This document shows, in pieces, positions 36,659 through 62,975 of a stretch of 64,000 nucleotides of DNA (positions are counted from its first letter, which is position 1; each line of letters starts with the position of its first letter). This DNA is from Terriglobales bacterium. Its GTDB lineage: Bacteria; Acidobacteriota; Terriglobia; Terriglobales; Acidobacteriaceae. The notes below the pieces were generated by a model that was not told the DNA's origin, made no database searches, and saw nothing but the letters and a program-made list of their open reading frames with translations. The stretch covers positions 1 through 64,000 of the forward strand of contig DASTZZ010000063.1 of the NCBI GenBank assembly GCA_035764005.1. Direction: 5' to 3'. A program made the position numbers and the translations under genes.

Positions 36659-36668
36659 AACTACCCTC

Positions 36669-39286: not shown

Positions 39287-39332
39287 TGGCGAAACTCTAT
39301 CGCCGAAAATGAATAACAGACTGCTTACTGCG

Positions 39333-41384: not shown

Positions 41385-41397
41385 AGTTACTGTCCCT

Positions 41398-43358: not shown

Positions 43359-43864
43359 CCTCGAAGTCTCCCCAACTCTCCGCGCCGCTGAGCCAATCCG
43401 TTCATTTCCGACGCAGGCAGCCTAGGCGTTGACACCAACCAGGGCAGCCGAATCGAGGGGAGGGCTCCGAGTCTCATCGGCAACACGGATGCATTTACCG
43501 TCGGGTCATCGTCTCAAAGTCACTCATGGCAAACAAGTTACGAAGGTAAGAAATTGTCCGCAGACGCCCCATATTTATTGAGCGAGTCACGTACCGTAGC
43601 GTTCGAGGGCGGCCTGGTCGAGGTCTCTGCGAAGACGCTTACGTTTATGGGTGCCTGCGCATTACCCGAGTACTCGTTTCATTTGGCGCCGGGTAACTTC
43701 TCCGCTTCCGGAGGTAACGCGGAGGGAATGCGGTGAGATCACAAGGACTTGCCACTAACAACGTGCAGATTCAATTAAAAAGCGGAATTTTCCCGAGCCG
43801 TGCCTTGGGGCTCGGAATCGCTCCTGGGAGGAATACAACAGGGCTGCCCTGTCGAGGGCAGGTG
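43359..43864. other. Intergenic region, 506 bases, upstream of the signalling operon
   Basis: This gap should hold the promoter of the operon beginning at 43358 and the 3' end of the PilZ gene. Two hairpins occur just after the PilZ stop: CTGCCCT-GTCG-AGGGCAG at 43844-43861 and CCGAGCC/GGCTCGG at about 43794-43816. Either may end PilZ transcription. A 60-codon frame at 43554-43736 (TTG start) is not convincing. Confidence 0.55.
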
Positions 43865-44554
43865 TTAACGCCAAGAAAGAGCCGGAGATTCAGCTTCTCT
43901 CTCTCGCAACCACGCCTTCAGAGCTCTGTCGGAGTCGCCGGTTACACTCGTAAATTCAGCTCCAACTGTCGTACCTTTTGTCCATGCCACGGTCGCACCG
44001 ATTTCGAGTCTCTGGCTCATTCCGGGGAGAACAAACGCAAGCTGCAACGTCTTGTTCACCGGGATACCATTGCAGTCAAGGCACGCTCCTCGAGCACTCA
44101 GGTCAATCATTTTGACGCGCGCAGCTTGTCCGTTGCAGAACACTTCCGCAACTAGATCGACTGGATGACGACAATAACGGCGCTTTTCATGCATGATCAG
44201 TGCGCGCGCCGAATTAAGCGCTTGCCTCAATTCGGGCAAGAGCTGCGCAGACTTGGAAATGAAGAAGTTCACACCTGAAATCTTGGACAGAGCCGCTCGG
44301 TGCGCATCGTCAGCAAGCGCCAGAACGATGGCATAGCGATTGAATTTTTCAGCTCTCAGCTTCGTTATCACATCCGAAAACTTCGCCGGATCACAGATGT
44401 CGAGCAAAATACATTCAACCTTGCCGCGTGAAATTACACGATCAAAGCTCGTAATCTCACAACACTGACAGGCAATACTGGCCTCGTACAGCACTGGCTT
44501 TATCTCGCTGCGCAGAATCAGGTCGTCGGATACGAGTAGGGCTGTGGCCTGCAT
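43865..44554 (-). CDS. PilZ-domain protein with receiver-like N-terminal domain
   Basis: 229 residues. The first about 115 form a receiver-like fold with Asp in CILLDICDPAKF and Lys/Ser in FFISKSAQLLPEL, but it lacks the acidic pair near the start (LVSDD is partial), so phosphorylation is doubtful. The rest is a PilZ domain: the c-di-GMP motif RRYCRHPVDL with DLSARGACLDC (D/N-x-S-x-x-G pattern), and GAEFTS. PilZ proteins bind cyclic-di-GMP and relay it to motility or polysaccharide machinery. It stands between the signalling operon and the polysaccharide cluster. Confidence 0.88.
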   Translation of the reverse strand: MQATALLVSDDLILRSEIKPVLYEASIACQCCEITSFDRVISRGKVECILLDICDPAKFSDVITKLRAEKFNRYAIVLALADDAHRAALSKISGVNFFISKSAQLLPELRQALNSARALIMHEKRRYCRHPVDLVAEVFCNGQAARVKMIDLSARGACLDCNGIPVNKTLQLAFVLPGMSQRLEIGATVAWTKGTTVGAEFTSVTGDSDRALKAWLREREAESPALSWR

Positions 44555-44882: not shown

Positions 44883-46220
44883 TTGCGTTTATGGGTAATC
44901 GGGAAGGCAGCAGCTATTTTCGTCCTGGGTATCTGGCTCACCGGCTGTGGGTCGGGAGCGGCTTCTAACGCGCTTTCCTCCCCAAATACAACATCATCGA
45001 CCACCGATTCCAGCAGTTCTGGCTCTTCGACTACTCCGACAGTGGGCCTCCCAACCCCCACCACCACGCTTGCTGTTGAAACTGGGAACAACACGAGCAC
45101 AGCCGACACATTTGTCGGCACTACCAACGGCAATATCGCTGCCGGCAATGTTTCCAAGGCGCCAATACGCTCGTTGTTGTATGCAGGTTCGGCCACGAAG
45201 ATTTACGCAAATTGGGTGCCGTGGTGGGGAAATGCGAGTCACATCAATGTCGGCTACTCATCTGGCGATCCAAACGAACTTCAGCGCCAGGTGACTGATA
45301 TGGTGAGTCGCGGTATCGACGGGGTGATTGTCGATTGGTACTCAGCAGCATCCCTCGATCAACCTACGCAAGGACTGATGAAAGAGGTGGAGCAGCATCC
45401 CGGTTTTCAGTTCGCGCTGATGCCGGATTCGGGGGCGTACACCGGCGTAGCCGATCCTACAGCCAAACTCATCGCCGACCTCAATTATGCGGCGAGCACG
45501 TACTTTACCTCGCCCAACTATATGCGCCTGAACGGAAAGCCCGTCGTGTTTCCTTTTGGTCTTGAGACATTTCCCATAGATTGGAACGCGGTGCTTGCCG
45601 GCGTGCAGGGTGGACCTGCTTTCATCTTTCGCAATGTGAGCGGCTTTAGCGCAACAGGATCCAGCGGCGCTTATGCATGGGGTCCGGATCAGCCGCCAGC
45701 GTATGAGGACTACTTCTATTCCAATGCTCTGGCGCTAAATAAGCCCACCTACGGTTTCGTAAGCAAAGGCTTCAACGACTCCCTTGCTGCGTGGGGGCAA
45801 AATCGTTTTCTTGATCAGCAGTGCGGCCAAGAGTGGCTGAATACCTTCGCCATGGCGAATAAGTACTATTCATCCTCCCAGCCCCTTCCTTACATGCAGG
45901 TTGTCACGTGGAACGATTACGAAGAAGGGACCGCGATCGAGACTGGGATCGACAACTGTCTCAGCGTTTCGGCACAGGTCAGCGGCTCGACGCTCGCCTG
46001 GAGCATCAACGGCCAGGAAAACACAATAGACCACTACACCATTTTTGTTTCCCAAGACGGTACCAATCTCAGCAGCCTAGGCGATGTTCCTGCCGGGACG
46101 CGCACGCTGGATTTGTCTCGATTTAAGTTTCAGCATGCTGCATACACGTTCTACGTGAAAGCAGTTGGCAAACCATCGTTGCGCAATCAGATCTCCAACG
46201 CAGTCTCTTATCGGCCTTGA
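44883..46220 (+). CDS. GH99/GH71-like lipoprotein
   Basis: The TTG at 44883 has AGGAG seven bases upstream. The protein starts with a lipoprotein signal ending LTGCGSG, then about 75 Ser/Thr-rich residues. The catalytic-type domain shows YANWVPWWGNASHINVGYSS, RGIDGVIVDWYS and MQVVTWNDYEEGTAIETGID. The WND/E-x-x-E-G motif with nearby acidic residues resembles GH99 (endo-alpha-mannanase/mannosidase) and GH71 (alpha-1,3-glucanase) enzymes. A C-terminal fibronectin-like domain (DHYTIFVSQDGTNLSSLGDV) follows. A shorter paralogue lies at 59528-60532. It probably acts on a polysaccharide at the outer membrane. Confidence 0.85.
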   Translation: MRLWVIGKAAAIFVLGIWLTGCGSGAASNALSSPNTTSSTTDSSSSGSSTTPTVGLPTPTTTLAVETGNNTSTADTFVGTTNGNIAAGNVSKAPIRSLLYAGSATKIYANWVPWWGNASHINVGYSSGDPNELQRQVTDMVSRGIDGVIVDWYSAASLDQPTQGLMKEVEQHPGFQFALMPDSGAYTGVADPTAKLIADLNYAASTYFTSPNYMRLNGKPVVFPFGLETFPIDWNAVLAGVQGGPAFIFRNVSGFSATGSSGAYAWGPDQPPAYEDYFYSNALALNKPTYGFVSKGFNDSLAAWGQNRFLDQQCGQEWLNTFAMANKYYSSSQPLPYMQVVTWNDYEEGTAIETGIDNCLSVSAQVSGSTLAWSINGQENTIDHYTIFVSQDGTNLSSLGDVPAGTRTLDLSRFKFQHAAYTFYVKAVGKPSLRNQISNAVSYRP

Positions 46221-46341: not shown

Positions 46342-47589
46342 CTAATCGAATGCCTGCGCCGTGGTGTCTGACTCAGAAGGAGCGACGCCTGGGGATCGGA
46401 CTACGGCAGGTTCCGCGAACCCGCGTGTTCGACTGTTCTTTCGCATGCTGTTCCTGAAGAGCTCAAGATAGCCTTGGACAATGAAGGGTAACGTCATGCG
46501 CTCTGCCGCGTGATAATTTCTGCGGGACATTTCTTCTAGACGCGAGCGCGAATTGAGCAGGTCGACGACGCTATCAACAAAAGAAGAGCTGTTGTTTGCA
46601 TCGTAGAACTGAATTGCCAGTCCCTCTTGTTCCCCCATCTCACGGAACTCGGGTAGATCAGCGCAGACAATCGGCACCCCGTACTCGGCTGCCTGATGAG
46701 CAACTCCGCTCGATCCGGTCGAGGAAGAATACGGCATCAGCAACAGAGAGGTAGTCCGGAATAGCTCTGGAATCTGCTCTTCAGGAATGTATCCAGCAAA
46801 CTCGATGCGGGAATCATGTCGATACTTCTGCGCGATGGATTCGATGTATCCCGGAGTGATGGGATGATCGCAGCCCGCTACGATCAGTTTTGCATTGGGA
46901 ATTTTAGCGGCAATCTGAGGAAAGGTGTCCATTAGCATCTCAAGGCGCTTGTAGGTACCCCAGTGTCCGAGTGCGAGAAGGCGGTGTTCCGGATTGCCGC
47001 GTCGTTCCATAGTAGGTGGCTCGGGACGCGAGCAGAAGATGCCATGTGGACTGAAATAAGCATTTTTAGCTTTGTACTTCTCGACTAAGGTTCTCCGATA
47101 ACCTGGCAAAAGAACGGTCACGGAATCTGCCTGAAGCAGCGCCTTAGTTGCCGCCCACCCGGCGAGTCGATAGAGAAATTGGTTGCGCACACCCGCGTCC
47201 TCGAGGTTTACGTGGTCCATCAGGTGATGCAAAGTGATGTGAGTCTGATATCCAGCGGTACGTACGAGCGCTGGCGCGAGCAAACCCGAAAATGCCGCGG
47301 CTGGATTTAGTTGATTCCCAAACGTTGCAAACAAAAGATTGAACCAGACTACGTCCGGCTTGAGCTCGCGAACCTTGGCAAGAATTCGAAACGGGTTGGA
47401 AAGGCTGTTGAACTGCCAGGTGCGGACTACATTGAATCCGTCAAGTTCCCGAACTGGGCCTTGCTGCTCGTCGGCCAGAACTGTGATGCTGTTCGAAGCA
47501 TCGTCTTTAACCGTTCTGACGATGTGAAACGCATATTCATTCAGCATTCTCTCGCTTGGAGGAAAGGTGCTCACGTAACAGATTTTCAT
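46342..47589 (-). CDS. GT4-family glycosyltransferase
   Basis: The 415-residue protein has the GT-B fold: N-terminal MKICYVSTFPPSERMLNEYA, middle LLALGHWGTYKRLEMLMDTF (nucleotide-sugar loop region) and the C-terminal EX7E-type motif in SSGVAHQAAEYGVPIVCADL-PEFREMGE. GT4 enzymes use NDP-sugars with retention of configuration. It is cytoplasmic, with no membrane helix, so it may extend a lipid-linked or exopolysaccharide chain. Its neighbour upstream on the same strand is the TPR/barrel protein, 50 bases away, and the two could be one operon. Confidence 0.9.
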   Translation of the reverse strand: MKICYVSTFPPSERMLNEYAFHIVRTVKDDASNSITVLADEQQGPVRELDGFNVVRTWQFNSLSNPFRILAKVRELKPDVVWFNLLFATFGNQLNPAAAFSGLLAPALVRTAGYQTHITLHHLMDHVNLEDAGVRNQFLYRLAGWAATKALLQADSVTVLLPGYRRTLVEKYKAKNAYFSPHGIFCSRPEPPTMERRGNPEHRLLALGHWGTYKRLEMLMDTFPQIAAKIPNAKLIVAGCDHPITPGYIESIAQKYRHDSRIEFAGYIPEEQIPELFRTTSLLLMPYSSSTGSSGVAHQAAEYGVPIVCADLPEFREMGEQEGLAIQFYDANNSSSFVDSVVDLLNSRSRLEEMSRRNYHAAERMTLPFIVQGYLELFRNSMRKNSRTRGFAEPAVVRSPGVAPSESDTTAQAFD

Positions 47590-47639: not shown

Positions 47640-50600
47640 CTAAAACAAACTGATTCGAAATACGGGCACAATCGTGTTGTGCGCTCCTGCTCCAAAGTCA
47701 TAAAAACTCTGGGTGCGAACTCCGATTGAGAAGCGCAGCGGATAATCCACTGTCGTATCCGGTAATACTGCATCTCTCCCACGCCATGGTTTGGTATATG
47801 AAAGAAGAAATCCGCCTTCGACATTGTCGTAGTTATGCATTCCAAACCCGCGCGTCATAGCAAAGGAGCCGTCAAAACTCCAACGGCTGTTACGCCGATA
47901 TTCCACTTCCAGCGATGGTCGCACCGCCTGCGCGATTGCGTAAGTTGTGTCTTGCACTCGCCAGGACCTGATGAGTTCCGCGAGGCCGGTTGCTTTCCAG
48001 TTCCTACTGAATGTGTGTTCAATTCCGCCATATGCATTGGTCGAGAAGTATTCGCGGATACTTGGATGAAGTTGCAGGTCGCGTATGCCGTAACCGGTAA
48101 TCAGAGCAGTTTTTCCCCATGGCCGGCCAACACGGAAGCGCAGATGCGCGGCATCGTCCTTGGAACTATCGGGCTGGAGAGTAAACGGGCCAGCTTCATG
48201 AATCAGATCGCCGCTGACTTCCAGCCAATTGGAAATTGGGCTCGTCGTCAGATAGACGAACTGACGAAAGAGATCCTGATTTAATTCAGTAGGAGAGGCT
48301 TTGTCCCGGCGAACGGTGAACTGCAACCCGGCGCTAAGATGCAGTTTTGTCGACCCGATGTGCAGCACTGGATTCAAGGTCGAGTTGAAGGTGGTGTCGT
48401 AGGTGTCGCGATTCAGAATCGTGTTGGCGCTCGGGAAAGAAACCTCGCCGCGTGCGTTTCGCTCTTCGACAATGCCCGTGATCAGTGGGAATGCCTCAGG
48501 TTGCGCGCGAAAGTATGCGGTACTGCGACTCTCGTACGAGTAACGCGGCGTTGGGAGCTGACTGGGATTGGAGACGCCGAACATCCGAGCGTCAAGCTGA
48601 TAGATGGTTGCATCCTCGAAGATCGGCGAGAATGACGAATCGGATATTACGTTGAATCCTCCCTTTACCGGCAGTCCCGCTTGTGCGGCCACATCCAATT
48701 CATCGCGGCGAACCGTTTCGTCATCGGCCACCAGAGCTGAAGCTCGGCTCATCGCGGAGAGCGCCATCGCGCTGTTCCCTTCCTGGCGGAAGACATTCGC
48801 CATGGCCAGCTGATAGTCATAGTTTTCTTGCAGGTCTGCGGGATTGCCGAGCGCCAGCAACTGTGATTTTGCTTTTTGTGTGAGTCCTTCGGCGAGATAC
48901 GTGTTCGCCACACCCACGGCTATGACGCGAGCGTCGGCGCCGGCATTTTCGGCCGCTTTATAGAGGCGGCGCGAAGTATCGAAATCATGCATGCTTAGCA
49001 GCAGACTCGCGGCTTGAGCGAACTGCTCGGCTGTGATCGGCTGTGTGTCGCCAATCCGAGCTTCGGCTAAACCGAGACCGAGTTGCTGGCGTGCTTCCTC
49101 GAAGCGCCCGTCTATCACGAAGAGTTCAGCGAGCCCCAATCGGATCGAGAAGCGATCAGCATCGGGTAAATCAAGAGCGTGTTGAAAGCGCTCGAGAGCA
49201 GCATCGCGATCGCCCAGCGAGAGTAGAGCTCCGGCTGTTGCTTGCAATACAGACGAGTCTTCCGCACCTTCCTGTTCCGCGGCGGACACATACTGGTACG
49301 TCAGCTCGCGGTTTCGCAGGTGCGCGTAGGTATTGGCAAGCTGCGCGTACAGGAATGGATCCTCAGGGGACGCAGCCAGCGCTTCCTTGTATTCATCCGC
49401 CGCGTCGTTGTAACGATGCTCGTGGAAAAGGACATCGGCGAGTGCGAGGTGAAGGGTCTGATCTGTGGGAGCGAGCTTCAGCGCCGCCCGATATTCGTCA
49501 GCGGCTCTGCCGAAAAGCTGCTGCTGGCGATAAGCCCCCGCCATCGCCAGGTGTGTGGGAGCAGAATCTCCCATTAGCTGGCGCGCTTTTTCGGCGTGAT
49601 CGAGTGTCAGTTTGGGACGTCGCAGCTCGAGATAGGAAAACGCAATGCCCAAATGGGCTACGCCATCATTCGGCGATAACTTCAGCGCACGATTGAAGTC
49701 CTCTGCTGCCTGTTCGGCATTCTGCATGTCGTTGAGCACATAGCCGCGGTTCACATAGGCTTCTACCATTTGGGGATCGCGCTGCATCGCACGCGTGAAA
49801 TCGTCGATGGCTTGAGGAAGCAGTTCGCGGTGTTTTTTCACGTACCCTGAAAGCAAAGGGAAATTAGCTTCCTTTGGCAATATGACTTCGTATTTCGAAG
49901 TGAGCTGCAGCAGTTCGTCATAACGCCCGAGGTTATAAAGGTCATACCCGAGATAGACTGCAGCATCGCGATCGTTAGGCAGGAACTGAATCACTTTGCG
50001 GCCGATGGCCGCCGATTCTTCGTACTTGCCCGTCCACGTCAGATAGCGCTCACGTTCGCGCATCACGTGGGGTTCGTCGTTCATGGCTCCGACCGCTCGG
50101 TTAAGCCAAGCGCCTGCGAGATCCAATCTGTGCCACTCGATTCCGTTGTTAGCTCCTCCAGCCACGATGAGCGCCATGCCGGGCGACAATTTGTACGCGG
50201 TTTCGTAATTGCTCTCTGCAGCTTCATACTTTCGTTCCGCTACGTAGAGATCGCCGAGCGCTAGGTAAGGCTCGTAATCTTTGGGATACAGCGATGCCAC
50301 TCGATTGAAGTACCGCTCGGCCTCACGATTCTCTCGGAAATCTCGGGCAAGATAGCCCAGAGACATCATGGCGTATCTGTTTTTGCCGTCCACTTTTAGG
50401 ACTGCCGCGAACATTTGCCGAGCATCCGTCTTGCGATCAATCCGCCAGAGGAGCGCTGCATAGCCCAGCAGGATTTGGGAATTTTTGGGAGCGAGTACGA
50501 GTGCCTCCTTGTAATCGTGTTCGGCGCCGGCAGCCTCGCCGCGACCAGCCTGTATGGCCGCACGCAGCCGCAGAAACTCGGGGCGATCAGCTCCCTGGAT

Positions 50601-51848
50601 GTCCAATTTCAAAATGGAATTCCATGCCAGGTCCATTTGCTGTTTGCGGGAGGGGTCGTCCTTCGCGCTCTCGTACAAATTGGCGAGACTCATCCGCAGT
50701 TCCAGCGGATATAAGGGGCCTTCCGGCACCGATTCGGGAAGATTGGCGAGAGCAAGCTCATACTCGTGCATGGCTTCCATATCCCGTCCCTGGGTTCTCG
50801 CAATCTCGGCGCGAATGGCGTGGAGGCGGTAGTGATTGGGATTGAGCCGGGCTACGCGGTCCAAGTAACGAGTCGCCGTCTCAATTTTGTCTAGAGCAAG
50901 CCAGGCTGATGCCGTTTCCAGTTGATAATGAACGTTCTTCGGGTCGGCGTCGGCAGCGAGAGAGTACGTTTGCGCGGATTTTAGGTTGTCACCGCTTAGT
51001 TGGTACGTCCACGCAAGTTCGGCGATCAGGTCAGCACTCTTATTTGGAATTGCGGAGAGCGCCTGTATGGCAGCGGGATAGTTCCTGGCTTCACGATAGT
51101 ATGCGGCAAACGCGCGAGCGACCTCCGGTGAGCCCGCCGCATGCGATTTCGCTCGCTCGAGCATGGCGCGCGCGCCATCAGGCTTTTTCAGACGCATGAA
51201 TGCGGTAGCAGTCAGAATTTCGGTACGCGGCGACTGATGCATTGACTCCGCGCGCCGCAGAAAAGAAAGTGCTTGCTCGCCATCCCCGGACTGCAGGAAC
51301 AATTCGCCGGCCATCAATAGCTCGTTCTCCCGCTTGGGAGCGGCAGCTAGAATCCGCACAAGCAGCCTCTTGGCTTCCTCGGTATTGCCGGCTTTGATAT
51401 AGGTCTGCGCCAAACCGGAAAGTCCGTCGATAGATCCAGGTTGAAGCTGAAGGCCGTGATTGTAGGCGTCAATGGAAAGCTGCGTGCGTTCGGCAAGCCG
51501 CGCTGCATATCCCAACAGGAACCAGGAGTTGGGATCACGCGAAGAAGAATTCGCCGCCTGCTGCGCAAAAAAAAGTGCTTCGGAAAAATTTCCCGATTTG
51601 AGCGCTTGACCCGCCGCGCGAGTCTCTCGGGCTACGCCGATATTCGATCCCCATCCGAAAACCGTATTGGCAGTCGAATTCGCGCCGCTAGAACGAGACG
51701 CGGAGCGGGGCACAGATGCCTTGGGAGCTTTCGGGCTCAGTTCTACTCGTTGTCCGTCAATTTCGACCGTCTGCGCATGCGCGAACGAAACCAGCAGCAT
51801 CAGCGTGCCGGGGAGCAGAAGCAAGCGACAACAAAATCTTAAAATCAT
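47640..51848 (-). CDS. Giant TPR protein with C-terminal outer-membrane beta-barrel, polysaccharide exporter candidate
   Basis: The ATG at 51848 gives a signal peptide (MILRFCCRLLLLPGTLMLLV onward to AHAQ); a longer frame to 51881 is less good. The 1,402-residue protein has about 20 TPR units between residues 80 and 1070 (such as LFFAQQAANSSSRDPNSWFL, RALKLSPNDGVAHLGIAFSY, EYRAALKLAPTDQTLHLALA). The last 300 residues are beta-rich, with LNPVLHIGSTKLHLSAGLQF and a final Phe, in the manner of a 16- to 18-stranded barrel. This plan matches BcsC, PgaA and PelB, which guide polysaccharide through the periplasm and outer membrane. Sequence identity to a specific one is not claimed. Confidence 0.88.
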   Translation of the reverse strand: MILRFCCRLLLLPGTLMLLVSFAHAQTVEIDGQRVELSPKAPKASVPRSASRSSGANSTANTVFGWGSNIGVARETRAAGQALKSGNFSEALFFAQQAANSSSRDPNSWFLLGYAARLAERTQLSIDAYNHGLQLQPGSIDGLSGLAQTYIKAGNTEEAKRLLVRILAAAPKRENELLMAGELFLQSGDGEQALSFLRRAESMHQSPRTEILTATAFMRLKKPDGARAMLERAKSHAAGSPEVARAFAAYYREARNYPAAIQALSAIPNKSADLIAELAWTYQLSGDNLKSAQTYSLAADADPKNVHYQLETASAWLALDKIETATRYLDRVARLNPNHYRLHAIRAEIARTQGRDMEAMHEYELALANLPESVPEGPLYPLELRMSLANLYESAKDDPSRKQQMDLAWNSILKLDIQGADRPEFLRLRAAIQAGRGEAAGAEHDYKEALVLAPKNSQILLGYAALLWRIDRKTDARQMFAAVLKVDGKNRYAMMSLGYLARDFRENREAERYFNRVASLYPKDYEPYLALGDLYVAERKYEAAESNYETAYKLSPGMALIVAGGANNGIEWHRLDLAGAWLNRAVGAMNDEPHVMRERERYLTWTGKYEESAAIGRKVIQFLPNDRDAAVYLGYDLYNLGRYDELLQLTSKYEVILPKEANFPLLSGYVKKHRELLPQAIDDFTRAMQRDPQMVEAYVNRGYVLNDMQNAEQAAEDFNRALKLSPNDGVAHLGIAFSYLELRRPKLTLDHAEKARQLMGDSAPTHLAMAGAYRQQQLFGRAADEYRAALKLAPTDQTLHLALADVLFHEHRYNDAADEYKEALAASPEDPFLYAQLANTYAHLRNRELTYQYVSAAEQEGAEDSSVLQATAGALLSLGDRDAALERFQHALDLPDADRFSIRLGLAELFVIDGRFEEARQQLGLGLAEARIGDTQPITAEQFAQAASLLLSMHDFDTSRRLYKAAENAGADARVIAVGVANTYLAEGLTQKAKSQLLALGNPADLQENYDYQLAMANVFRQEGNSAMALSAMSRASALVADDETVRRDELDVAAQAGLPVKGGFNVISDSSFSPIFEDATIYQLDARMFGVSNPSQLPTPRYSYESRSTAYFRAQPEAFPLITGIVEERNARGEVSFPSANTILNRDTYDTTFNSTLNPVLHIGSTKLHLSAGLQFTVRRDKASPTELNQDLFRQFVYLTTSPISNWLEVSGDLIHEAGPFTLQPDSSKDDAAHLRFRVGRPWGKTALITGYGIRDLQLHPSIREYFSTNAYGGIEHTFSRNWKATGLAELIRSWRVQDTTYAIAQAVRPSLEVEYRRNSRWSFDGSFAMTRGFGMHNYDNVEGGFLLSYTKPWRGRDAVLPDTTVDYPLRFSIGVRTQSFYDFGAGAHNTIVPVFRISLF

Positions 51849-52041
51849 GGATGCTGCAAGCGTTGTGCACGCGAGAGACACTCAGTCTCACAATCAAAGA
51901 TGCCGATTTCGCCAAGCTGGTCGTCTGAACTGCTGGATTTGTGGGGGTGAGAAAGCCGATTTCCAAGACACCGGCTGGTGTCACGATAGCGTCACATCTT
52001 CTTTCCTTCGATGGGTTTGAAGGAGTTCGTGTGTTTTTGCA

Positions 52042-55008
52042 GTGAAACTTGATGGCGCATTGCAAGACAACTCAGGCCAGCAGTTCGGGAATCGAAAATT
52101 CGTGGCCCACTCCATTCAAATTCCTCGTGAGAGTCGTTCTCATGCCTACGTTGAAGACCCGGCGACTCTCAGTAGCCACGCCAAGCCAATTCCGCTCGCG
52201 TTTATTCTTCTTGCGGCTGTGGCCGTCCATCTCCCGTTAATTCTGATGGAGCTGCCGCTTCGGTCGTATGACGCGAATTACCACATCTTTTTCGCAGCCC
52301 ATTATGCCCGGCACTGGTTCGATCCTTGGAACACACATTGGTATGCGGGATTCTCACAGACGATGTATCCTCCGCTGCCGCACCAGTGGATCGCACTGTT
52401 CTCGCATGTCCTCGGCTTAAATCTCGCGTACCTGGCAGTGCAGTTCGTCATCATTTTGCTAGTTCCGGTCGGTGTTTATCGCTATTCGAAGCTTTGGGTA
52501 AACGAGCGGGCAGCCAGCTTTGCTGCTTTAGGCAGCGTCTTTCTCGGTTCCCTCTCGTTTCTCGTGTATCAGGCGGGACAACTTTCAACTACCGCTTCTG
52601 CGGCGCTGTATCTGAATGCAATTCCCTACCTGTATTTTTGGATTCGGCGTGGCAGCGTCCCATCACTGCTGAAGGGACTCACAGTGGGCGCAGCTGCGGC
52701 TGCGGCGCACCACATAACACTAGTTTTGGGCTCGCCTTTGTTTGCGATTCCCGTGATCTGGTTGGCTGTTGTCGACGGTCAGACTGATGCGGCCCCGGGG
52801 CAAAGGGCATCGGCAAGAGTGGTGATCGTGCGTGCCGTCGTCTTCGCCGTACTCGCCATGATCCTGATCGGCATTGTGCTGTATCCGTTTTTCGCCGCAG
52901 TCCTGCACAATCCCGTCAAGCAGGTGCCGATCTTCCACCAGAGCCGGTTGAACTACTTGCTCAATCCCGAATGGGGAATTAATTACTTCATCATCCCTTA
53001 TGGCGCGCTGATCCTCGCCCTCCCGTGGACCTTTTATTACGGATCAACACGGCGCCGGCTGCGTCCACTGTTCGTTGGTTTCTGGCTTACTTTAATTCTC
53101 AGTCTTGGCGGCACGACTCCATTGCCCAAATTAGTGCTCGGCAGACTGTTCGAAATTCTCACGTATGAGCGATTCACGCTTTGGGGCTGCGTAATGGCGC
53201 TTCCCTTCGCCGGGCTGGCGGCGGAGGCGCTCATCGATAAGTACAGACGTAAGGCGATGATTGCGCTGTTCTCTGCAGCTGCGGCGACCTGCGCCATGGC
53301 GGTGGCCTGGACAACGTTCCATCCGATCGCGGCCGGAACAGCTTTCGATGTGCAGCCGGTGATTGACTTTCTCAATCGCGAAAACCATAGCGAGTTCCGG
53401 TACATCACCCTCGGATTTGGACAGGAGATGTCACGCGTCAACACCTACGCGAAAGCAGAAACAGTGGACGGAGATTACAACTCGGCGCGTCTGCTGCCGG
53501 AATTAACAAGCTACGGAGGAGCGCAACTTAACAGCGCGAAATATTTCGGAACCGCCGGCATGAACTCACTGCTGGCGATACTTAAACATGCAGATAGATA
53601 TGGGCTGCGCTTTATCTTCGTGCGCGATCGCTGGTATGAGCCGTTGTTGTCATTCGCCGGCTGGCGCCCGACCGAAGAATACGACAATGGATTGATAACG
53701 CTTTGGTCGAAGGATGATGTGCCCCCGGCAAAGCCGGTGATCATCGATCCGAAGGCGATTCCTACAAGCCTGCAGGGAATCTTATGGGGCACTCTGCCGG
53801 TAGGGTGCAGCTTTCTCGCCATCATTTTGATCGTCATGCTGCCTGAGCGCGCTAAGACCCCCGTCGTATTCACGCTCGAAGAAGATACCTACGCTGGCGC
53901 GCGGCGCCGCGCCAGATTATCCCCCGTGTTCGGAGCACTTTTTGTGGTGTTTACGTTCGGAGCGCTGGCATCCGGCCTTGTACATTCCGGATCTGGGAAC
54001 GAGAATTCGCCCGACTCAGTTACGCATCAGCTGATAACCGCTGTACAAGCTCGAAACTACGAAGCCGCGTATAACTTCGTCGCCAACAAGTCAGAGGTTA
54101 CCGAGCAGCAGTTCGCCACTGATCTGAGCGGCGATAACAACGATCTGTTGAACTGGGCAACATTGCAATCGGCAGACACCGAAGTTCTCCATCAGAGTGA
54201 TAACGATGCGGCAGTTCGCGCCTCTTTAACCTGGTCCACTCCAGTAGGACCGTTTCACGAGCTTCGCGATCTGAAGCTGGTGCGCAATGATGGTCAGTGG
54301 CGCGTTAAGTGGCAGCCAAACCCGGCTAAGAGCGCACCGCCACAAGTAATCCCGATTACCAACTTGCAATGGGAGGTGATTCGTAGAGGTCCCCGAGACG
54401 ATTGGGGCACGCAGGAGGCCGATGCACCCCGCGTGCGCGTGATTGCGATGAACACCGCCGAATATGAAGGATCTGCAGTGGTGATGGGCGAGATCGAAAA
54501 TGAAGATACTGTTCCGTCATTCGTCTCAGTGGAGGCAAAGCTGTTCGGAGATAACGACAAGCTTCTTGGTGAGGAGAGCAGTTTCGATAAGATCAATCAT
54601 GTCCTCCTTCCCAAAGCGGTCTCACCATTCCGCATTGACTTTCCTGGAGTTTCGCTGCAGCAAGTGAAAAACATTCGTATGCGGACTGGCTCGCTGCTGA
54701 TCTCCACCAGCGCAGACCCGACGATTGGAGTCACGAATCAGCGGATCACGACCAACTCGACCGGACAACCTGTGTTGACGGGAGATCTCGTGAACGAAGG
54801 TGGCCGCATCATCAACGTGCCACATCTAATACTCACAACCTACGATGACAATGGAAAGCTGTTTTGGGTAAGCGATGCATATGTTCCCCACGCTTTGTTG
54901 CCGCAGGTTCCAATGCCCGTCAGCATCCCACTGCGAAGTGATGCGCCGAGAGACCTTTCGAACTATCGCATCATTGCAAACTACTTCATCAGCAGGCGGT
55001 TCCAATGA
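52042..55008 (+). CDS. Large membrane protein, GT-C / PTPS-related type, with periplasmic C-terminus
   Basis: 988 residues: after about 50 polar residues come roughly ten membrane helices up to residue 620. The first periplasmic loop contains RSYDANYHIFFAAHYARHWF, followed by PWNTHWYAGFSQTMYPPLPH. An acidic residue in this loop, between helices 1 and 2, is the mark of GT-C glycosyltransferases; the sequence also resembles the PTPS_related membrane family. The last 350 residues lie outside the membrane and include NTF2-like (LITAVQARNYEAAYNFVANK) and FxLYD-like (YEGSAVVMGEIENEDTVPSF) stretches. The GTG start has no good ribosome-binding site, so the start is uncertain. It overlaps the next gene by 4 bases. 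Confidence 0.8.
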   Translation: MKLDGALQDNSGQQFGNRKFVAHSIQIPRESRSHAYVEDPATLSSHAKPIPLAFILLAAVAVHLPLILMELPLRSYDANYHIFFAAHYARHWFDPWNTHWYAGFSQTMYPPLPHQWIALFSHVLGLNLAYLAVQFVIILLVPVGVYRYSKLWVNERAASFAALGSVFLGSLSFLVYQAGQLSTTASAALYLNAIPYLYFWIRRGSVPSLLKGLTVGAAAAAAHHITLVLGSPLFAIPVIWLAVVDGQTDAAPGQRASARVVIVRAVVFAVLAMILIGIVLYPFFAAVLHNPVKQVPIFHQSRLNYLLNPEWGINYFIIPYGALILALPWTFYYGSTRRRLRPLFVGFWLTLILSLGGTTPLPKLVLGRLFEILTYERFTLWGCVMALPFAGLAAEALIDKYRRKAMIALFSAAAATCAMAVAWTTFHPIAAGTAFDVQPVIDFLNRENHSEFRYITLGFGQEMSRVNTYAKAETVDGDYNSARLLPELTSYGGAQLNSAKYFGTAGMNSLLAILKHADRYGLRFIFVRDRWYEPLLSFAGWRPTEEYDNGLITLWSKDDVPPAKPVIIDPKAIPTSLQGILWGTLPVGCSFLAIILIVMLPERAKTPVVFTLEEDTYAGARRRARLSPVFGALFVVFTFGALASGLVHSGSGNENSPDSVTHQLITAVQARNYEAAYNFVANKSEVTEQQFATDLSGDNNDLLNWATLQSADTEVLHQSDNDAAVRASLTWSTPVGPFHELRDLKLVRNDGQWRVKWQPNPAKSAPPQVIPITNLQWEVIRRGPRDDWGTQEADAPRVRVIAMNTAEYEGSAVVMGEIENEDTVPSFVSVEAKLFGDNDKLLGEESSFDKINHVLLPKAVSPFRIDFPGVSLQQVKNIRMRTGSLLISTSADPTIGVTNQRITTNSTGQPVLTGDLVNEGGRIINVPHLILTTYDDNGKLFWVSDAYVPHALLPQVPMPVSIPLRSDAPRDLSNYRIIANYFISRRFQ

Positions 55009-55871
55009 GAAAGCTAAGAACCGCCCTTCTCGCCTGCATTGTCGGAACTGCCAACTGGGCTTTGGCGGCGGACATGATTGTTCCTCAACGAGCTGTCGCC
55101 GGCGACAAGATTTCAATCGAAACCTCTGGAAGTGGCGACGCGACCGCTCTCCTCGTCGCACCCAGCCATCTCGTCTCAAAATCGATCGTTCTGGGAAGAA
55201 CCTTCGAGCTTGCCGGCGATGACCTCGCCGATGCAGGCGAGTACACGTTAATACTGACAAGCGGCGCTGGAGAAATCGCGAAAAAGTTTTTCGTCTCACC
55301 CGGTCCGCCTGCCCATCTGAGCTTTGTCACACATCCTTCGCGCGCTCCTGTTGCCCAGAAATCCGGTATCACGGGAGCCGTGTATGCATTTGATAGTTAT
55401 GACAATCTAATCTCGCAGTCTTTGGTCGTAGATTTCAAGCTGTCAGGAGCTCAAGCAGGAACGATTGACCGTCAAGCATCAAGCCGTAGCGGTGTTGCCT
55501 CTGTCAGTCTGGATTCTCCCGCAAAGGAAGGACTCCTCAGGTTTGAGGCGGCCACCGGAGGGGTGCGAACCACTCGCGTCGTGAGAGTCGTCGCCGATGA
55601 GCCGTGCACGTTGCAAATCCACGCCGAGCCGCTCAACAGCGGGAGGATCAGGGTCCAGACTGCCCCGGTGAAAGACTGTTCAGGCAACCTCGTTCCCGAC
55701 GGCACTGTCGTCACATTTACTGGATGGGATAAGCAAGGCCGCACCACCGTCGACGTGAGTGTGAAAAAAGGAATCGCGCAGGTCGACTTACCCGCCAGCG
55801 GCGAGGTTCGAATCTCAGCCGCTTCCGGTGTAGCACTGGGGAAAGAAATTCGATTGAGGGCCGCACCGTGA
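55005..55871 (+). CDS. Secreted protein with Ig-like (Big-type) domains
   Basis: The 288-residue protein has a signal peptide (LRTALLACIVGTANWALAAD) and two or three beta-sandwich regions: IVPQRAVAGDKISIETSGSG, ISQSLVVDFKLSGAQAGTID and VPDGTVVTFTGWDKQGRTTV. The last two resemble bacterial Ig-like (invasin-type Big_1) repeats, including a DxxGNLVPDGTVVTF pattern. It starts inside the end of the membrane-protein gene (ATGA overlap), so the two probably function together in the periplasm. No catalytic motif is visible. Confidence 0.8.
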   Translation: MRKLRTALLACIVGTANWALAADMIVPQRAVAGDKISIETSGSGDATALLVAPSHLVSKSIVLGRTFELAGDDLADAGEYTLILTSGAGEIAKKFFVSPGPPAHLSFVTHPSRAPVAQKSGITGAVYAFDSYDNLISQSLVVDFKLSGAQAGTIDRQASSRSGVASVSLDSPAKEGLLRFEAATGGVRTTRVVRVVADEPCTLQIHAEPLNSGRIRVQTAPVKDCSGNLVPDGTVVTFTGWDKQGRTTVDVSVKKGIAQVDLPASGEVRISAASGVALGKEIRLRAAP

Positions 55872-56380
55872 TTTGTTTTCGCCACGCGCGCACAAAAGTT
55901 CTTCTACTAGTAAGCATCGTTTGCGCCGGGGCTCCTGCTGTTTGTGCGCCAAGTGTGGAGCTCTCGATAAGCGGCGCCGGGCCGCGACAATTGGAGCCCA
56001 CCTTACAGCAGTCGATCCCTAGAGATTATGTGAAGGCATGGCAAGTTTTATCCATGGCTCTCGAAGAGAGAGATCCAAAGCTGCTTGACCAATACTGGGT
56101 GGGCGTTGCCCATGACAAATTCCGGCGATTGGTCGATGACGAGTCGCAGACCGGGATTCAGATCCGTTACAGAGACATATCCCACAAGCTGCAAGCAGTC
56201 TTTTATCCCTCCGACGGCGCCGCCCTTCTTTTGTATGACAACGTGCAGCTCGAGATGAAGGTCCTGCGTTCAAGCCGGGTAATTCACACCGGGAAAATCA
56301 ACAAACGCTACTTGATTCTGATGACTCCTGCCCAAGATCGCTGGGTAGTGCGCGTATTGCAGGAAGTTCCACTTTCCTGA
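55868..56380 (+). CDS. Secreted protein of unknown function, 170 residues
   Basis: The GTG at 55868 overlaps the previous stop (GTGA). The product has a signal peptide (KVLLLVSIVCAGAPAVCA), then an alpha/beta domain: RDYVKAWQVLSMALEERDPK, LLDQYWVGVAHDKFRRLVDD, VFYPSDGAALLLYDNVQLEM and RWVVRVLQEVPLS. The pattern suggests an NTF2/SnoaL-like or DUF-type periplasmic fold, but I do not recognise a family. Third member of the translationally coupled trio with the 988-residue membrane protein. Confidence 0.78.
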   Translation: MICFRHARTKVLLLVSIVCAGAPAVCAPSVELSISGAGPRQLEPTLQQSIPRDYVKAWQVLSMALEERDPKLLDQYWVGVAHDKFRRLVDDESQTGIQIRYRDISHKLQAVFYPSDGAALLLYDNVQLEMKVLRSSRVIHTGKINKRYLILMTPAQDRWVVRVLQEVPLS

Positions 56381-56638
56381 TTGTCAGCGCCCTGGTTTCG
56401 CTCACAAACATCTGCCTGCCGACACCTGAAATACCACCTTAGCCGCGAAAACGTTGCAAACTGGTAACACTTTTCTGCGCCCAGCGATTACTCATATGGC
56501 AACATTCGCGAGTTCCTCCAGCATCCACAACATCATCCCCTGTGCTGCTGGAAGGCGCAATCCGGCGGGACAGGTGGTAAGCATTCAGGTATGTGGAATG
56601 CTGCGCGCTTAGAGGAACAATTGGGAGGAAGGGATTTC

Positions 56639-57700
56639 ATGATCTCTGTTGTCGTTCCTATCTACAACGAGCAAGAGACCATTGTTGCGCTTCACCAGGC
56701 CATGCAGGAGGCCATGAATTCCATTGGCCAAGAGTGGGAAGTCGTATATGTGAATGACGGCAGCGAAGATAATTCTCTGTTTTTGCTGCGCCAACAGCAA
56801 ACTCTCGATCCTCATGTTGTGATCGTAGATCTCTCCCGAAATTGGGGGCATCAGGGAGCACTATCGGCGGGTCTGCAGGTCGCCAGAGGTGATGCGATTG
56901 TTACCATGGACGGAGACTTGCAAGACCATCCCTCAGTCATTCCTCGCATGATCGAGTGCTGGTACGCCGGCGCGCAGGTTGTACTCGCTGAGCGGAGATC
57001 ACGACGAGAGGCTGGAATCAAACAGTTCTTGTATCCGCTGTTCTACAAGCTGCTTGGCAAAATCGCAGATTGCCCAATTCCGATGAACTCAGGCATTTTC
57101 GGCCTGATTGATCGCAAGGTAGCCGACCAGATCCTTTCCATGCCGGAGCGCAATCGTTACCTGCCCGGACTGAAGACGTTCGTGGGCTTCCGAACTGAGA
57201 CGATTTATTACGATCGCCTCGCCCGACACGCTGGAGTTGCGAAATACACATGGAAAAAACTGCTTCGGTACGCCTTCGATGCTATTTACAGCTTCAGCTG
57301 TAAGCCTCTGCAGTTAGCGTTGATCAGTGGAACTCTCCTGCTCGTGCTTGCCAGCGGTGTTGGCGCTGCCCTGCTACTCGCATGCTTCTCATCCACCATG
57401 CGAACGCAATCGTGGTTTGAGTATGCAATCGTTTTGACGGTCTTCATGTTTGTGGCAGGTCTCCAACTCACCTGCACTGGCTTCGTAGGGGAATACATTG
57501 GCAGAATCTATGACGAAGTTCGAGCGCGGCCTCTTTTTGTAATCAACAACATTTTGCGCAGCTCATCGGCCGACACTCCCTATCTTGTGCGGGAATACGC
57601 TCCAATAGCTGTCCAGAAATCTGTTATGCCGGAGACCGCGACACAACCGAGCGCCGCTGCTCCGGCTGCGAGCGTTGTTACGACTCCCGCTGCAGCGTAG
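56639..57700 (+). CDS. GT2 glycosyltransferase, polyprenyl-phosphate type
   Basis: The ATG at 56639 lies just after GGGAGGAAGGG; an upstream ATG at 56591 adds 16 unlikely residues. The 353-residue protein shows the GT-A fold: VVPIYNEQETIVALHQAM, YVNDGSEDNS, DLSRNWGHQGALSAGLQVAR, then the DXD motif DGDLQD. Two C-terminal helices (PLQLALISGTLLLVLASGVG, FEYAIVLTVFMFVAGLQLTC) anchor it. The layout is that of DPM/ArnC/GtrB enzymes that transfer a sugar from UDP/GDP-sugar to polyprenyl phosphate. The lipid-linked sugar could feed the GT-C-like membrane protein. The last 30 residues are Ala/Thr-rich. Confidence 0.9.
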   Translation: MISVVVPIYNEQETIVALHQAMQEAMNSIGQEWEVVYVNDGSEDNSLFLLRQQQTLDPHVVIVDLSRNWGHQGALSAGLQVARGDAIVTMDGDLQDHPSVIPRMIECWYAGAQVVLAERRSRREAGIKQFLYPLFYKLLGKIADCPIPMNSGIFGLIDRKVADQILSMPERNRYLPGLKTFVGFRTETIYYDRLARHAGVAKYTWKKLLRYAFDAIYSFSCKPLQLALISGTLLLVLASGVGAALLLACFSSTMRTQSWFEYAIVLTVFMFVAGLQLTCTGFVGEYIGRIYDEVRARPLFVINNILRSSSADTPYLVREYAPIAVQKSVMPETATQPSAAAPAASVVTTPAAA

Positions 57701-58017: not shown

Positions 58018-59460
58018 ATGCGCATAACGGTAGTAGGGTCTGGATATGTGGGACTGGTTGCGGGAGCTTGTTTTGCCGAAATTGGGCACGATGTCATCCT
58101 GGTCGACAACGATCTCGGCAAACTCGCGGAGCTGAAAAACGGTAATGTTCCGATTCACGAGAACTCGCTTCCAGAGCTGATCACTACTCATTCGGGAACG
58201 CGCCTTTCGTTTACCGATGATTTGCCTGCGGCGGTTTCCGCTTCCAAGGCGATTTTTATTGCCGTCGGCACTCCTCCAACCGAGGACGGGAATGCTGATC
58301 TTTCCTACATAGAGCAAGTGGCCTGCGGGATCGCCGGCGCTATCGATGAATACAAAGTAATCGTCGAGAAGAGCACCGTGCCGGTTTACACGAATGAATG
58401 GGTTCGTCGTGTGATGGTGTTAAACGGTGCTCCTCATGAGCTGTTTGATGTTGCTTCAAATCCGGAATTCCTGCGAGAAGGGACGGCTGTGAGAGATTTC
58501 CTGTTCCCCGATCGCATCGTTATCGGCGCTGATTCTCCACGCGCTCAAAGAGTGCTTCAAGAGATCTATTTCCCTCTTACGTCCGGAAGATATTATGAAA
58601 GCCCGACGGCGCGGCTCCATTCTGGGAATGGCAACCCATCGCCACGATTGATCGCAACGAGCGCCAAGAGCGCAGAACTGATCAAGCATGCCTCGAATGC
58701 ATTTCTGGCGATGAAGATCTCATTTGTGAATGCGGTTGCTAACGTTTGCGAGCACGTTGGGGCAGATATCGAACAAGTTGTGCAAGGGGTTGGCAGCGAC
58801 TCGCGCATTGGAAAACGCTTTTTGCGCCCCGGAATCGGCTACGGCGGCTCGTGCTTCCCGAAAGACATCTCCGCCTTTCAGGCGGTGGCGGCTGAAAGCG
58901 GATATGACTTCCGTCTTCTTGAGGAGGTCCGCACCATCAATGAGACTCAGCGGAAGCGTTTTCTACGAAAAGTACGAAGGGCTTTGTGGAATCTGAAAGG
59001 CAAGCGTCTCGCAGTTCTCGGCCTGGCGTTCAAGGGCGGAACAGACGACATCCGTGAGTCCCCTGCGGTTAACATTGTCCAATCATTGTTGCGCGAAGGC
59101 TGCACGATCGCCGCGTACGACCCAGCCGCAATGGAGCGCGCCAAAACAATGCTGCGTGGGGCGATTCGCTTCGCTGAAGACGCTTACGATGCGGCCCATG
59201 GCGCCGACGCCCTGTTGATTCTCACTGATTGGGAGCAATTCGCAGAATTAAACCTGGATCGCTTGAAGAAAGAGCTTCGCTTTCCTGTCATCATTGACGG
59301 ACGCAATCTCTACTCTCCCGATAAGATGGGTAAGGCCGGATTTGTTTATTCAAGCATTGGCCGACCCGATGCGTTCCCAATGACGCTAACCCATCGTCTC
59401 TCAAGGACAGCTGCCTCCTTCTACGGCTCCGGCGCTGATGCAGTTGAGTACGCGAGTTAG
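58018..59460 (+). CDS. ugd: UDP-glucose 6-dehydrogenase
   Basis: The 480-residue protein converts UDP-glucose to UDP-glucuronate with NAD. Landmarks: Rossmann start MRITVVGSGYVGLVAGACFA; AIFIAVGTPPTEDGNADLSY; catalytic-site EKSTVPV; SNPEFLREGTAVRDFLFPDR; the nucleophile Cys in GYGGSCFPKDISAF; and GLAFKGGTDDIRESPAVNIV in the UDP-binding domain. The length is about 30 residues above the usual 430-450, mainly at the C-terminus. Its product is a common precursor of acidic exopolysaccharides, which fits the neighbouring glycosyltransferases. Confidence 0.95.
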   Translation: MRITVVGSGYVGLVAGACFAEIGHDVILVDNDLGKLAELKNGNVPIHENSLPELITTHSGTRLSFTDDLPAAVSASKAIFIAVGTPPTEDGNADLSYIEQVACGIAGAIDEYKVIVEKSTVPVYTNEWVRRVMVLNGAPHELFDVASNPEFLREGTAVRDFLFPDRIVIGADSPRAQRVLQEIYFPLTSGRYYESPTARLHSGNGNPSPRLIATSAKSAELIKHASNAFLAMKISFVNAVANVCEHVGADIEQVVQGVGSDSRIGKRFLRPGIGYGGSCFPKDISAFQAVAAESGYDFRLLEEVRTINETQRKRFLRKVRRALWNLKGKRLAVLGLAFKGGTDDIRESPAVNIVQSLLREGCTIAAYDPAAMERAKTMLRGAIRFAEDAYDAAHGADALLILTDWEQFAELNLDRLKKELRFPVIIDGRNLYSPDKMGKAGFVYSSIGRPDAFPMTLTHRLSRTAASFYGSGADAVEYAS

Positions 59461-59527
59461 CAACAGCTATCCTCAATCATGAACGAGGATGCGGCCTTCT
59501 TGGTTTTCTGATACCTGGAGTCCTGGT

Positions 59528-60532
59528 GTGCGGCCTCTCTATCCACTCATAATCGCGACGACGATCCTGCTACTGGGCGGTTGTGGCCGCTACAGTATCC
59601 ATAAGGCAATCCGTCAAAGTATTTCCAGCGCAGAACAAACCACGACCGTGCTGGCTGTTTATCAGCCCTGGTTTGGTTCACCGGAGCATATCAATGTAGG
59701 TTACTCGTCCAGCGATGTTTCGGTATTGCAGAAGCAGATAAAGCAAGCGAAGGAGTTTGGAATCGACGCCTTTGTCGTCGATTGGTATGGCAATAACAGG
59801 AAAGACTTTGATAGTAACTACGCTTTGTTACAAGAAACAGCGGCCAATACAGACTTTAAGGTCGCTCTGATGTATGACGAGCCCAAGGGCGATCCCGAGG
59901 ACTCGACACAGCAGGCGATCGTCGCTTTCGATTACGCGTACGACAAATACATCGGACCAAAGGCCGCGAACGCGCATGCCTATCTGCTCTACAACGGACA
60001 TCCCATCATCTTTATTTGGCCAAACAGCACACGCACAGATTGGAAGATCGTCCGCCGGCACGTGGAGCAGTGGGAAGTCCCACCACTCCTTATCATGCGT
60101 TTTGATACCGCCAAAGATCCACAAGCTTTCGATGGATTCTACGCTTGGGTGGATACCGGTAAGGAAGGCTGGTCGCCGGATGGAAGGAATTGGGGCAAGG
60201 AGTACTTAGACCGTTTCTATAAGACGATGAACCGTGACTACCCGAACAAAATTATCGTCACAGGTGCCTGGGCTGGATTCGACGATTCCAAAGCGCACTG
60301 GGGAACGCACAGAAAAATCGATACTCGCTGTGGAAAGACATTTCAGGATACTCTCACCGAGTTTCACCGCAACGTCAGTCCAGAGCACCCGATCCCGTTT
60401 CTACTGATCGAAACGTGGAACGACTATGAGGAAGGCACGGCAATTGAACGTGGAATCGGCCATTGCGTATCCGAGTCGGCCGTGACTGCAGGTCGAGTCG
60501 ATTCCCGCTTTGCGCAAAGGCCATCCTCCTGA
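59528..60532 (+). CDS. GH99/GH71-like lipoprotein, second copy
   Basis: The GTG at 59528 has GGAG seven bases upstream and gives a lipoprotein signal with lipobox LLGGC; an ATG at 59489 would add 13 residues ahead of it. The 334-residue product shows the same pattern as the protein at 44883: YQPWFGSPEHINVGYSSSDV, FGIDAFVVDWYGNNRKDF, ALMYDEPKGDPED and IETWNDYEEGTAIERGIGHC. It lacks the Ser/Thr linker and the C-terminal fibronectin-like domain of the longer copy. It may cut, transfer or modify the polymer made by the cluster, on the periplasmic or outer-membrane face. Confidence 0.85.
   Translation: MRPLYPLIIATTILLLGGCGRYSIHKAIRQSISSAEQTTTVLAVYQPWFGSPEHINVGYSSSDVSVLQKQIKQAKEFGIDAFVVDWYGNNRKDFDSNYALLQETAANTDFKVALMYDEPKGDPEDSTQQAIVAFDYAYDKYIGPKAANAHAYLLYNGHPIIFIWPNSTRTDWKIVRRHVEQWEVPPLLIMRFDTAKDPQAFDGFYAWVDTGKEGWSPDGRNWGKEYLDRFYKTMNRDYPNKIIVTGAWAGFDDSKAHWGTHRKIDTRCGKTFQDTLTEFHRNVSPEHPIPFLLIETWNDYEEGTAIERGIGHCVSESAVTAGRVDSRFAQRPSS

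Positions 60533-60602: not shown

Positions 60603-62975
<2,373 letters not shown>

Follow-up and report, generated by a model that had tools for sequence, protein, structure and literature searches.

A tetratricopeptide repeat-barrel protein tied to a GT-C enzyme in one acidobacterial family is a candidate polysaccharide exporter

The 64,000-nucleotide stretch of DNA analyzed here (the window; Terriglobales bacterium contig DASTZZ010000063.1, positions 1 to 64,000) encodes a tetratricopeptide repeat (TPR)-barrel protein, designated F (47640..51848, minus strand), which is a candidate polysaccharide exporter. The gene and its relatives stand beside a conserved set of partners that includes an enzyme of the GT-C glycosyltransferase fold (c1), a GT4 glycosyltransferase, and, in many relatives, a flippase, and searches of these loci found no gene for a processive synthase. 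We regard it as probable, in a modest degree, that F is an outer-membrane exporter serving a lipid-linked GT-C/flippase pathway, an arrangement that would join synthase-type export to Wzx-type assembly.

The open reading frame (ORF) of F is intact and encodes 1,402 amino acids from its ATG, in line with the TPR-barrel protein of about 1,400 residues proposed in a sequence-only reading that preceded this analysis; an alternative GTG start would extend it to 47640-51881 (minus strand). A probable Sec signal peptide (residues 1 to 25; 51774..51848, minus strand), read by eye from the translation, would be cleaved between AHA and Q, and this Gln26 is at least 95% conserved among 38 full-length proteins. 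The predicted periplasmic TPR scaffold covers about residues 79 to 1057 (48678..51614, minus strand), as judged from a TPR profile scan and Pfam, with the last helices taken from the structural model. Pfam reported nine TPR_19 and eight TPR_16 stretches, other matches to helical-repeat families, a chance-level match to TetR_C_20 (E 0.04), and nothing in the barrel region, while the NCBIfam matches were of TPR type and included PrsT, PgaA, and BcsC, all below cut-off. The iterated TPR profile found 20 positive-scoring units in F and 17 to 22 units per protein across the 38 full-length proteins (window included), which agrees with the earlier count of about 20, and gaps in the register suggest additional degenerate units. 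Two sets of loci were compared, the first consisting of 40 fetched loci and the window (41) and the second of 54 named loci; the sets overlap and are not independent. The C-terminal residue is Phe in all 38 full-length proteins and in 51 of the 54 proteins of the second set, the remaining three of which run off contig ends. Because the 38 proteins align with few gaps relative to the residues of F, and because the same genome encodes a full-length paralogue of 46% identity, the architecture is not a product of chance. At three loci on metagenome-derived contigs (L101, L123, and L134) the gene for F is broken into two ORFs, by decay or assembly error.

The C-terminal part of F (about residues 1059 to 1402; 47643..48674, minus strand) is predicted to form a 16-strand barrel that ends in the terminal Phe. 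An AlphaFold2 model of residues 860 to 1402, built from an alignment of F with 48 relatives from named contigs, has a mean predicted local distance difference test (pLDDT) score of 88.9 and comprises five TPR hairpins, a linking helix, and 16 long strands, as counted by hand from the element list of the model. Foldseek searches of PDB placed BcsC at ranks 1 and 2 (9b8a, E 1.8e-9; 9b8h, E 1.1e-7), PelB (9h80) at rank 10, AlgE at rank 16, and PgaA (4y25) at rank 21, with target template modeling (TM) scores of 0.57 for PelB and 0.61 for PgaA. The best exporter in VIA-align was PelB (Z 17.6 over 334 residues of TPR and barrel), followed by BcsC (17.0) and PgaA (16.8). The modeled fold is thus a 16-strand barrel with an attached TPR arm, and it is this combination, not the barrel alone, that points to exporters; the PelB-like fold as such is unspecific, being common to other exporters and porins. 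As a prediction, F has the architecture of the TPR-barrel polysaccharide exporters, an exported protein with multiple TPRs followed by a barrel of 16 to 18 strands (parts of PMC12141448 and PMC9601211), and the resemblance in layout to BcsC, PgaA, and PelB that had been read from the sequence now has fold evidence behind it.

The partner most regularly found with F is c1, which is predicted to be a multi-pass protein of the GT-C fold. Its model (pLDDT 89.6) matched STT3, AglB, AftD, AftA, ArnT, DPY19, PglB, and Pmt4 in Foldseek; we take 27 of the first 28 rows to be GT-C enzymes, and the other row is a translocon chain, presumably STT3. The best match (Z 21.4, 447 residues aligned) is to chain A of the yeast oligosaccharyltransferase, and Pfam returned only PTPS_related and DUF6541. 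GT-C enzymes carry a catalytic Asp in the first periplasmic loop, and Asp41 of c1, which follows the first membrane helix (residues 16 to 32) and occurs in all 37 sequences compared, is a candidate catalytic residue. Among the same 100 genomes of the taxonomic family, 47 carry both F and c1, two carry F only, one carries c1 only, and 50 carry neither; F lies at contig ends in both F-only genomes (G057 and G058), and the c1-only genome (G037) is 53% complete. In a 396-genome sample of the phylum, six genomes have F, and the same six are those with a strong c1 match in a 297-genome sample, in which one further genome, outside the family, gave a weak c1 match. One genome (G040) encodes a second c1 fused to a GT4 domain (L194 8285-11293; 1,002 amino acids), near genes for an outer-membrane polysaccharide export (OPX) protein, a Wzz/kinase-like protein (AAA_31 over cut-off, Wzz and GNVR below), and a weakly Wzy-like protein. 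This fusion beside an OPX gene ties the c1 type of enzyme to polysaccharide assembly independently of F.

For counts of gene order, ORFs were clustered with those of the window, and ORFs of fewer than 130 amino acids were dropped. In the first set, c1 is the first gene upstream of F, in divergent orientation, in 33 of the 36 loci that have 3 kb or more of upstream sequence. The three exceptions are L039, where an ORF lies between, and L070 and L072, where c1 was lost in ORF picking; a separate c1 search found it beside F in all three. After c1 follow c2, c4, and c5, with c4 present in 27 of the 34 loci that extend 5 kb or more upstream and c5 in 27 of the 34 that extend 6 kb or more. On the downstream side of F, the first gene encodes a GT4 enzyme at 23 of the 41 loci, a MOP flippase at 14, and a hexapeptide nucleotidyltransferase at 4, and a same-strand MOP gene (Polysacc_synt, E 1.5e-8) lies within seven genes downstream in 23 of the 37 loci with at least 5 kb. 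GH99-like proteins (19 loci), a nucleotidyltransferase-like protein, c11 (14 loci), and a PgfS/ArnC-like GT2 (9 loci) recur among the 41. The second set shows the same order wherever the contig is long enough, L099 excepted.

Some features of these loci vary. The flippase occurs in two lengths, 371 to 453 and 669 to 694 amino acids (e.g., L042 3931-5238 and L044 5913-7973), and the C-terminal domain of the long form resembles, by eye, the separate gene k17. A large phospholipase-C/phosphoesterase-like protein is encoded after F-GT4 in part of the family (L073 12790-15903). At L195 (5713-15546), the c1-c2-c4-c5 block faces genes for a nucleotidyltransferase, a flippase, k17, k15, and a kinase-like protein, and the exporter is absent. 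The second F copy of the genome of the window (L039, contig C65) has its own c1, c4, c5, nucleotidyltransferase, STAS-type protein, and flippase.

The sequence-only reading had held that the cluster lacks the usual partners of such exporters. For the known partners this stands: BLAST searches (E 1e-3) of the ORFs of the 41 and 54 overlapping loci gave no match to BcsA (793-residue part), BcsB, or BcsZ of Escherichia coli, nor to NfrB, PgaA, or PgaB, and none of the 32 GT2 matches returned by PgaC queries carries the processive QxxRW motif. These GT2 matches are of two kinds, PgfS/ArnC-like and polyprenyl-phosphate-sugar-synthase-like, both below NCBIfam cut-offs. The claim had overlooked, however, a different and conserved partner set, namely, the GT-C enzyme, the GT4 enzyme, the flippase (in many relatives), the polyprenyl-phosphate-type GT2, and the GH99-like proteins. 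The same BLAST searches gave no match to the OPX, Wzz-like, and Wzy-like queries of a related genome (L194). Poly_export, the OPX domain, occurs in 58 of 60 family genomes, and none of the Poly_export matches listed, as inspected by eye, falls closer than 30 kb to F. No Pel-specific model turned up for the neighbors examined, the sequence of PelB and those of PelA, PelC, PelD, and PelE not having been searched for.

These searches bear on the possibility that F is an ordinary synthase-dependent exporter that serves a processive GT2 encoded elsewhere, while another glycan is the product of c1, GT4, and the flippase. Known TPR-barrel exporters are assigned to synthase pathways in the portions of the literature consulted (PMC12141448, PMC9601211, PMC8669472, and PMC9603273), and the genome of the window does encode a PgaC-like GT2. 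That enzyme nevertheless belongs to an operon with its own pore, where PgaB- and PgaC-like genes come after the gene for a PgaA that scores over cut-off (L201 9574-14951, contig C8). Among 60 family genomes, no other has a PgaA that passes the cut-off, against the presence of F in 49 of 100, and the discordance of c1 and F in only 3 of 100 genomes is hard to explain for unrelated pathways. We consider such a scheme unlikely. The operon itself was rejected as the system of F because it has its own pore; it possibly stems from horizontal gain or contig contamination.

Alternatively, and with somewhat less likelihood again, c1 could be an oligosaccharyltransferase or a protein O-glycosyltransferase, and F could export or display a (glyco)protein in a Slam-like manner. 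The fold of c1 is closest to STT3/AglB, with PMT also matched, and the secreted Ig-like c4 would be a possible substrate. In Pfam, however, only the Slam TPR model matched F (5e-5, below cut-off) and the Slam barrel domain did not; the Slam barrel has 14 strands, against the 16 of the F model. The named neighbors are mostly sugar-polymer genes, and the c1 copy fused to GT4 lies beside an OPX gene, both of which speak against the handling of a protein.

By sequence profiles, F forms a family of its own, outside BcsC, PgaA, and NfrA. The comparison of its barrel with known exporters, which the sequence-only reading had proposed as a check, placed it in neither the BcsC nor the PgaA family. In hhalign, the 38-sequence barrel profile gave 0.1-0.2% against the single E. 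coli barrels of PgaA, BcsC, and NfrA, 1.0% against the PgaA of the same genome, and 7.7% against a 10-sequence BcsC_C alignment; the control comparison of BcsC with PgaA gave 0.3% and was equally blind, which makes these weak negatives with respect to deep ancestry. Since BcsC and PgaA miss each other, the results indicate separate sequence families, not separate origins. The barrel profile had no match among PDB sequences up to E 10, and a search of PHROGs with the barrel and c1 returned nothing. The BcsC barrel model (PF05420, BCSC_C) matched neither F nor any other protein of the genome, although it matched 11 of 199 phylum genomes, and the PgaA model TIGR03939 gave F 95.9 bits against a cut-off of 366.65, with matching stretches confined to profile positions 66-497 of 800. 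The long TPR part, earlier thought to mark a new branch of exporters, does not distinguish F, as PelB also has a long TPR scaffold (parts of PMC12141448).

Very unlikely, in our estimate, is the option that F is a divergent member of the BcsC, PgaA, PelB, or NfrA family whose sequence similarity has been lost. The architecture and strand number are those of PelB, BcsC, and PgaA (PMC12141448, in part) and of NfrA (PMC8669472, in part), and the blindness of hhalign to BcsC versus PgaA leaves common descent compatible with the data, PelB not having been compared by sequence. Against this, no family model places F (hhalign, 0.1-7.7%), its loci hold no Bcs, PgaB, or NfrB partners, and the BcsC and PgaA models each pick out genes distinct from F, the former in the phylum and the latter in the same genome. 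The nine family genomes with BcsC in that phylum search are all without F; only two F-bearing genomes are among the genomes listed for it, and we claim no exclusion.

F was matched in 49 of the 100 genomes sampled from its taxonomic family and in 6 of the 396 genomes of the phylum sample, all six of which belong to the family; at most five candidates per genome were scored among the matches listed in this barrel-profile search, so absence elsewhere is no proof. A scan of named genomes yielded the 54 loci of the second set, all titled Acidobacteriota or with genus names that we take to belong to that phylum, and it used one peptide pattern, with the same reservation regarding absence. In a FastTree phylogeny of 39 proteins, F of the window pairs with that of L099 (support, 1.0), apart from the second copy of its own genome.

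Several observations weigh against F as the exporter of a GT-C/flippase pathway. The 64-kb window holds no member of the flippase cluster, and the flippase seen in the same genome, which was not searched for others, adjoins the paralogue on C65. At L195 (G023), c1-c2-c4-c5 and the flippase genes occur without F. The closest relative has the c1 block and F-GT4 on different contigs, and the linkage is therefore breakable with both parts kept; likewise, the c1 copy in an OPX context means that c1 is not tied to TPR-barrels alone. The absence of a synthase covers the loci only, and the same genome has its separate pgaABC-like operon. As for the fold, the TM scores of BcsC against the F model are about 0.4 despite its top Foldseek rank, Foldseek ranks 3 to 9 are general porins, and the porins CymA (Z 18.4) and OmpG (18.0) are level with the exporters in VIA-align; because general porins score as high, the barrel alone is insufficient to indicate polysaccharide export. 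That F is a TPR-bearing uptake porin is still highly improbable: secreted glycosidase-like proteins are encoded nearby and CymA and OmpG score as high as PelB, BcsC, and PgaA, but the linked genes are mostly assembly genes, and we know of no uptake porin whose TPR scaffold is about 950 residues long.

The window itself carries the following genes around F. Directly downstream is the GT4 glycosyltransferase (46342..47589, minus strand; Pfam Glyco_trans_1_4, E 7.9e-17), which is faced by a gene for a predicted GH71/GH99-like lipoprotein (44883..46220, plus strand; Pfam GH71, E 1.9e-5, below cut-off), and in the closest relative, L099, a GH99-like gene likewise faces F-GT4. Divergent from F lies a gene for a 988-residue membrane protein (52042..55008, plus strand), in which c1 is fused to the periplasmic c2. 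Its GT-C domain, the c1 part used for alignment and fold comparison, spans 52150..53907 (plus strand; model and fold matches), and the c2 part has, by Pfam and NCBIfam, a weak NTF2-like match and an FxLYD domain. This is the sole c1-c2 fusion among the 41 loci. Sequence error was considered as its cause and rejected, as the closest relative of F has the same fusion (1,020 amino acids), in a block with c4, c5, GT2, and UDP-glucose dehydrogenase. In the window, the fusion is followed on the plus strand by the secreted Ig-like protein c4 (55005..55871; Pfam Big_1/Invasin_D3, below cut-off), the small secreted protein c5 (55868..56380; no Pfam family), a GT2 of the polyprenyl-phosphate-sugar type (56591..57700; PgfS/ArnC-like, without QxxRW; NCBIfam PgfS, 232 bits against a cut-off of 500), a UDP-glucose/GDP-mannose dehydrogenase (58018..59460; Pfam, E 1e-58), and a GH99-like lipoprotein (59489..60532; Pfam GH99, E 1.3e-9, over cut-off; lipobox read from the sequence). 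The dehydrogenase has a homologue of 79.8% identity in the c1-c2 block of the closest relative. A peroxidase-family protein (60690-62975) adjoins this polysaccharide block, and about 3 to 18 kb from F lies a block of cyclic di-GMP style (34170-44554) with a GGDEF-EAL response regulator, a hybrid kinase, a YfiR-like protein, a TonB-receptor plug protein, and a PilZ protein. A promoter scan (0 sites versus 3.1 expected) was uninformative.

We propose that the TPR superhelix of F extends into the periplasm and guides a polymer outward to the 16-strand barrel, which would be its exit pore. The polymer would not come from a processive inner-membrane synthase. GT4 would assemble a lipid-linked sugar unit, the Wzx-like MOP protein would flip it, and c1, acting at the periplasmic face, would either polymerize the unit or decorate it with polyprenyl-phosphate sugars supplied by GT2. 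The c2 (fused to c1 in the window), c4, and c5 proteins may be periplasmic helpers, and the GH99-like lipoproteins may have a product-trimming role like that of BcsZ, PelA, and PgaB in other systems. As to the identity of the polymer, uronic acid (from the dehydrogenase family) and alpha-linkages (from the GH99/GH71-like lipoprotein families) are guesses. In a stricter version, an STT3/ArnT-like GT-C enzyme uses flipped lipid-linked units and polyprenyl-phosphate sugars to build the polymer within the periplasm, a TPR-barrel pore of the synthase-pathway kind serves that polymer, and neither a synthase nor an OPX protein or copolymerase takes part. This version is plausible, and we place it slightly short of an even chance.

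Searches of the open-licence PubMed Central literature found no report of this system. According to parts of PMC9601211 and PMC9603273, TPR-barrel exporters go with synthase pathways, OPX translocons serve Wzx/Wzy or ABC pathways, and composites of OPX protein and barrel stand between them. The loci described here differ from the published pairings in that a full TPR-barrel, with no OPX match at the locus, is linked with a GT-C enzyme and in many relatives also with a flippase, which would be a further mixed arrangement beside the known composites. If this is true, the export logics would be interchangeable parts. It would also offer a genetic handle on the exopolysaccharides of soil acidobacteria, described as scarcely characterized in 2022 (PMC9693552, in part), through a protein present in roughly half of the genomes sampled from a single acidobacterial family.

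Among the known systems, the 16-strand barrel is common to PelB, BcsC, and PgaA (parts of PMC12141448), and F shares with BcsC, the E. coli cellulose exporter, both the TPR scaffold and the C-terminal barrel, BcsC providing the top two Foldseek matches. Unlike BcsC, F has no PF05420 match (hhalign, 7.7%), and its loci gave no match to BcsA (part), BcsB, or BcsZ. PelB of the Pel system of Pseudomonas aeruginosa resembles F in its long scaffold and 16-strand barrel (VIA-align Z 17.6). The likeness may reach into the pathway, as we take PelG to be of MOP type and PelF to be a GT4 enzyme; unlike in Pel, the flippase at F loci matches Polysacc_synt with no PelG model, the GT4 has no Pel-specific model, and a GT-C enzyme is added. 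PgaA, the exporter of poly-N-acetylglucosamine, has the same combination of TPRs and 16 strands (Foldseek target TM 0.61), whereas F reaches 95.9 of the 366.65 bits of TIGR03939, PgaA is over cut-off elsewhere in the genome, and neither PgaB nor a QxxRW-bearing PgaC stands alongside F. NfrA, of the NfrA/NfrB (NGR) system of E. coli, likewise combines TPRs with a 16-strand barrel and is a proposed glycan exporter (PMC8669472, in part); F differs from it in the hhalign comparison (0.2% against the single E. coli NfrA) and in the lack of an NfrB match at the loci. With the Wzx/Wzy pathways (Wza; EpsX/EpsY and WzpX/S/B of Myxococcus), many F loci, though not that of the window, may share a MOP flippase, and the F loci a predicted periplasm-facing enzyme of GT-C type; the Myxococcus systems also have a PgaA- or AlgE-like barrel (parts of PMC9601211 and PMC9603273). 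Unlike these, the F loci gave no OPX or Wzz match, and the barrel of F carries its own TPR scaffold. Finally, c1 is predicted to share its fold with STT3/AglB/PglB, ArnT, and PMT, at about 8 to 14% identity in structural alignments.

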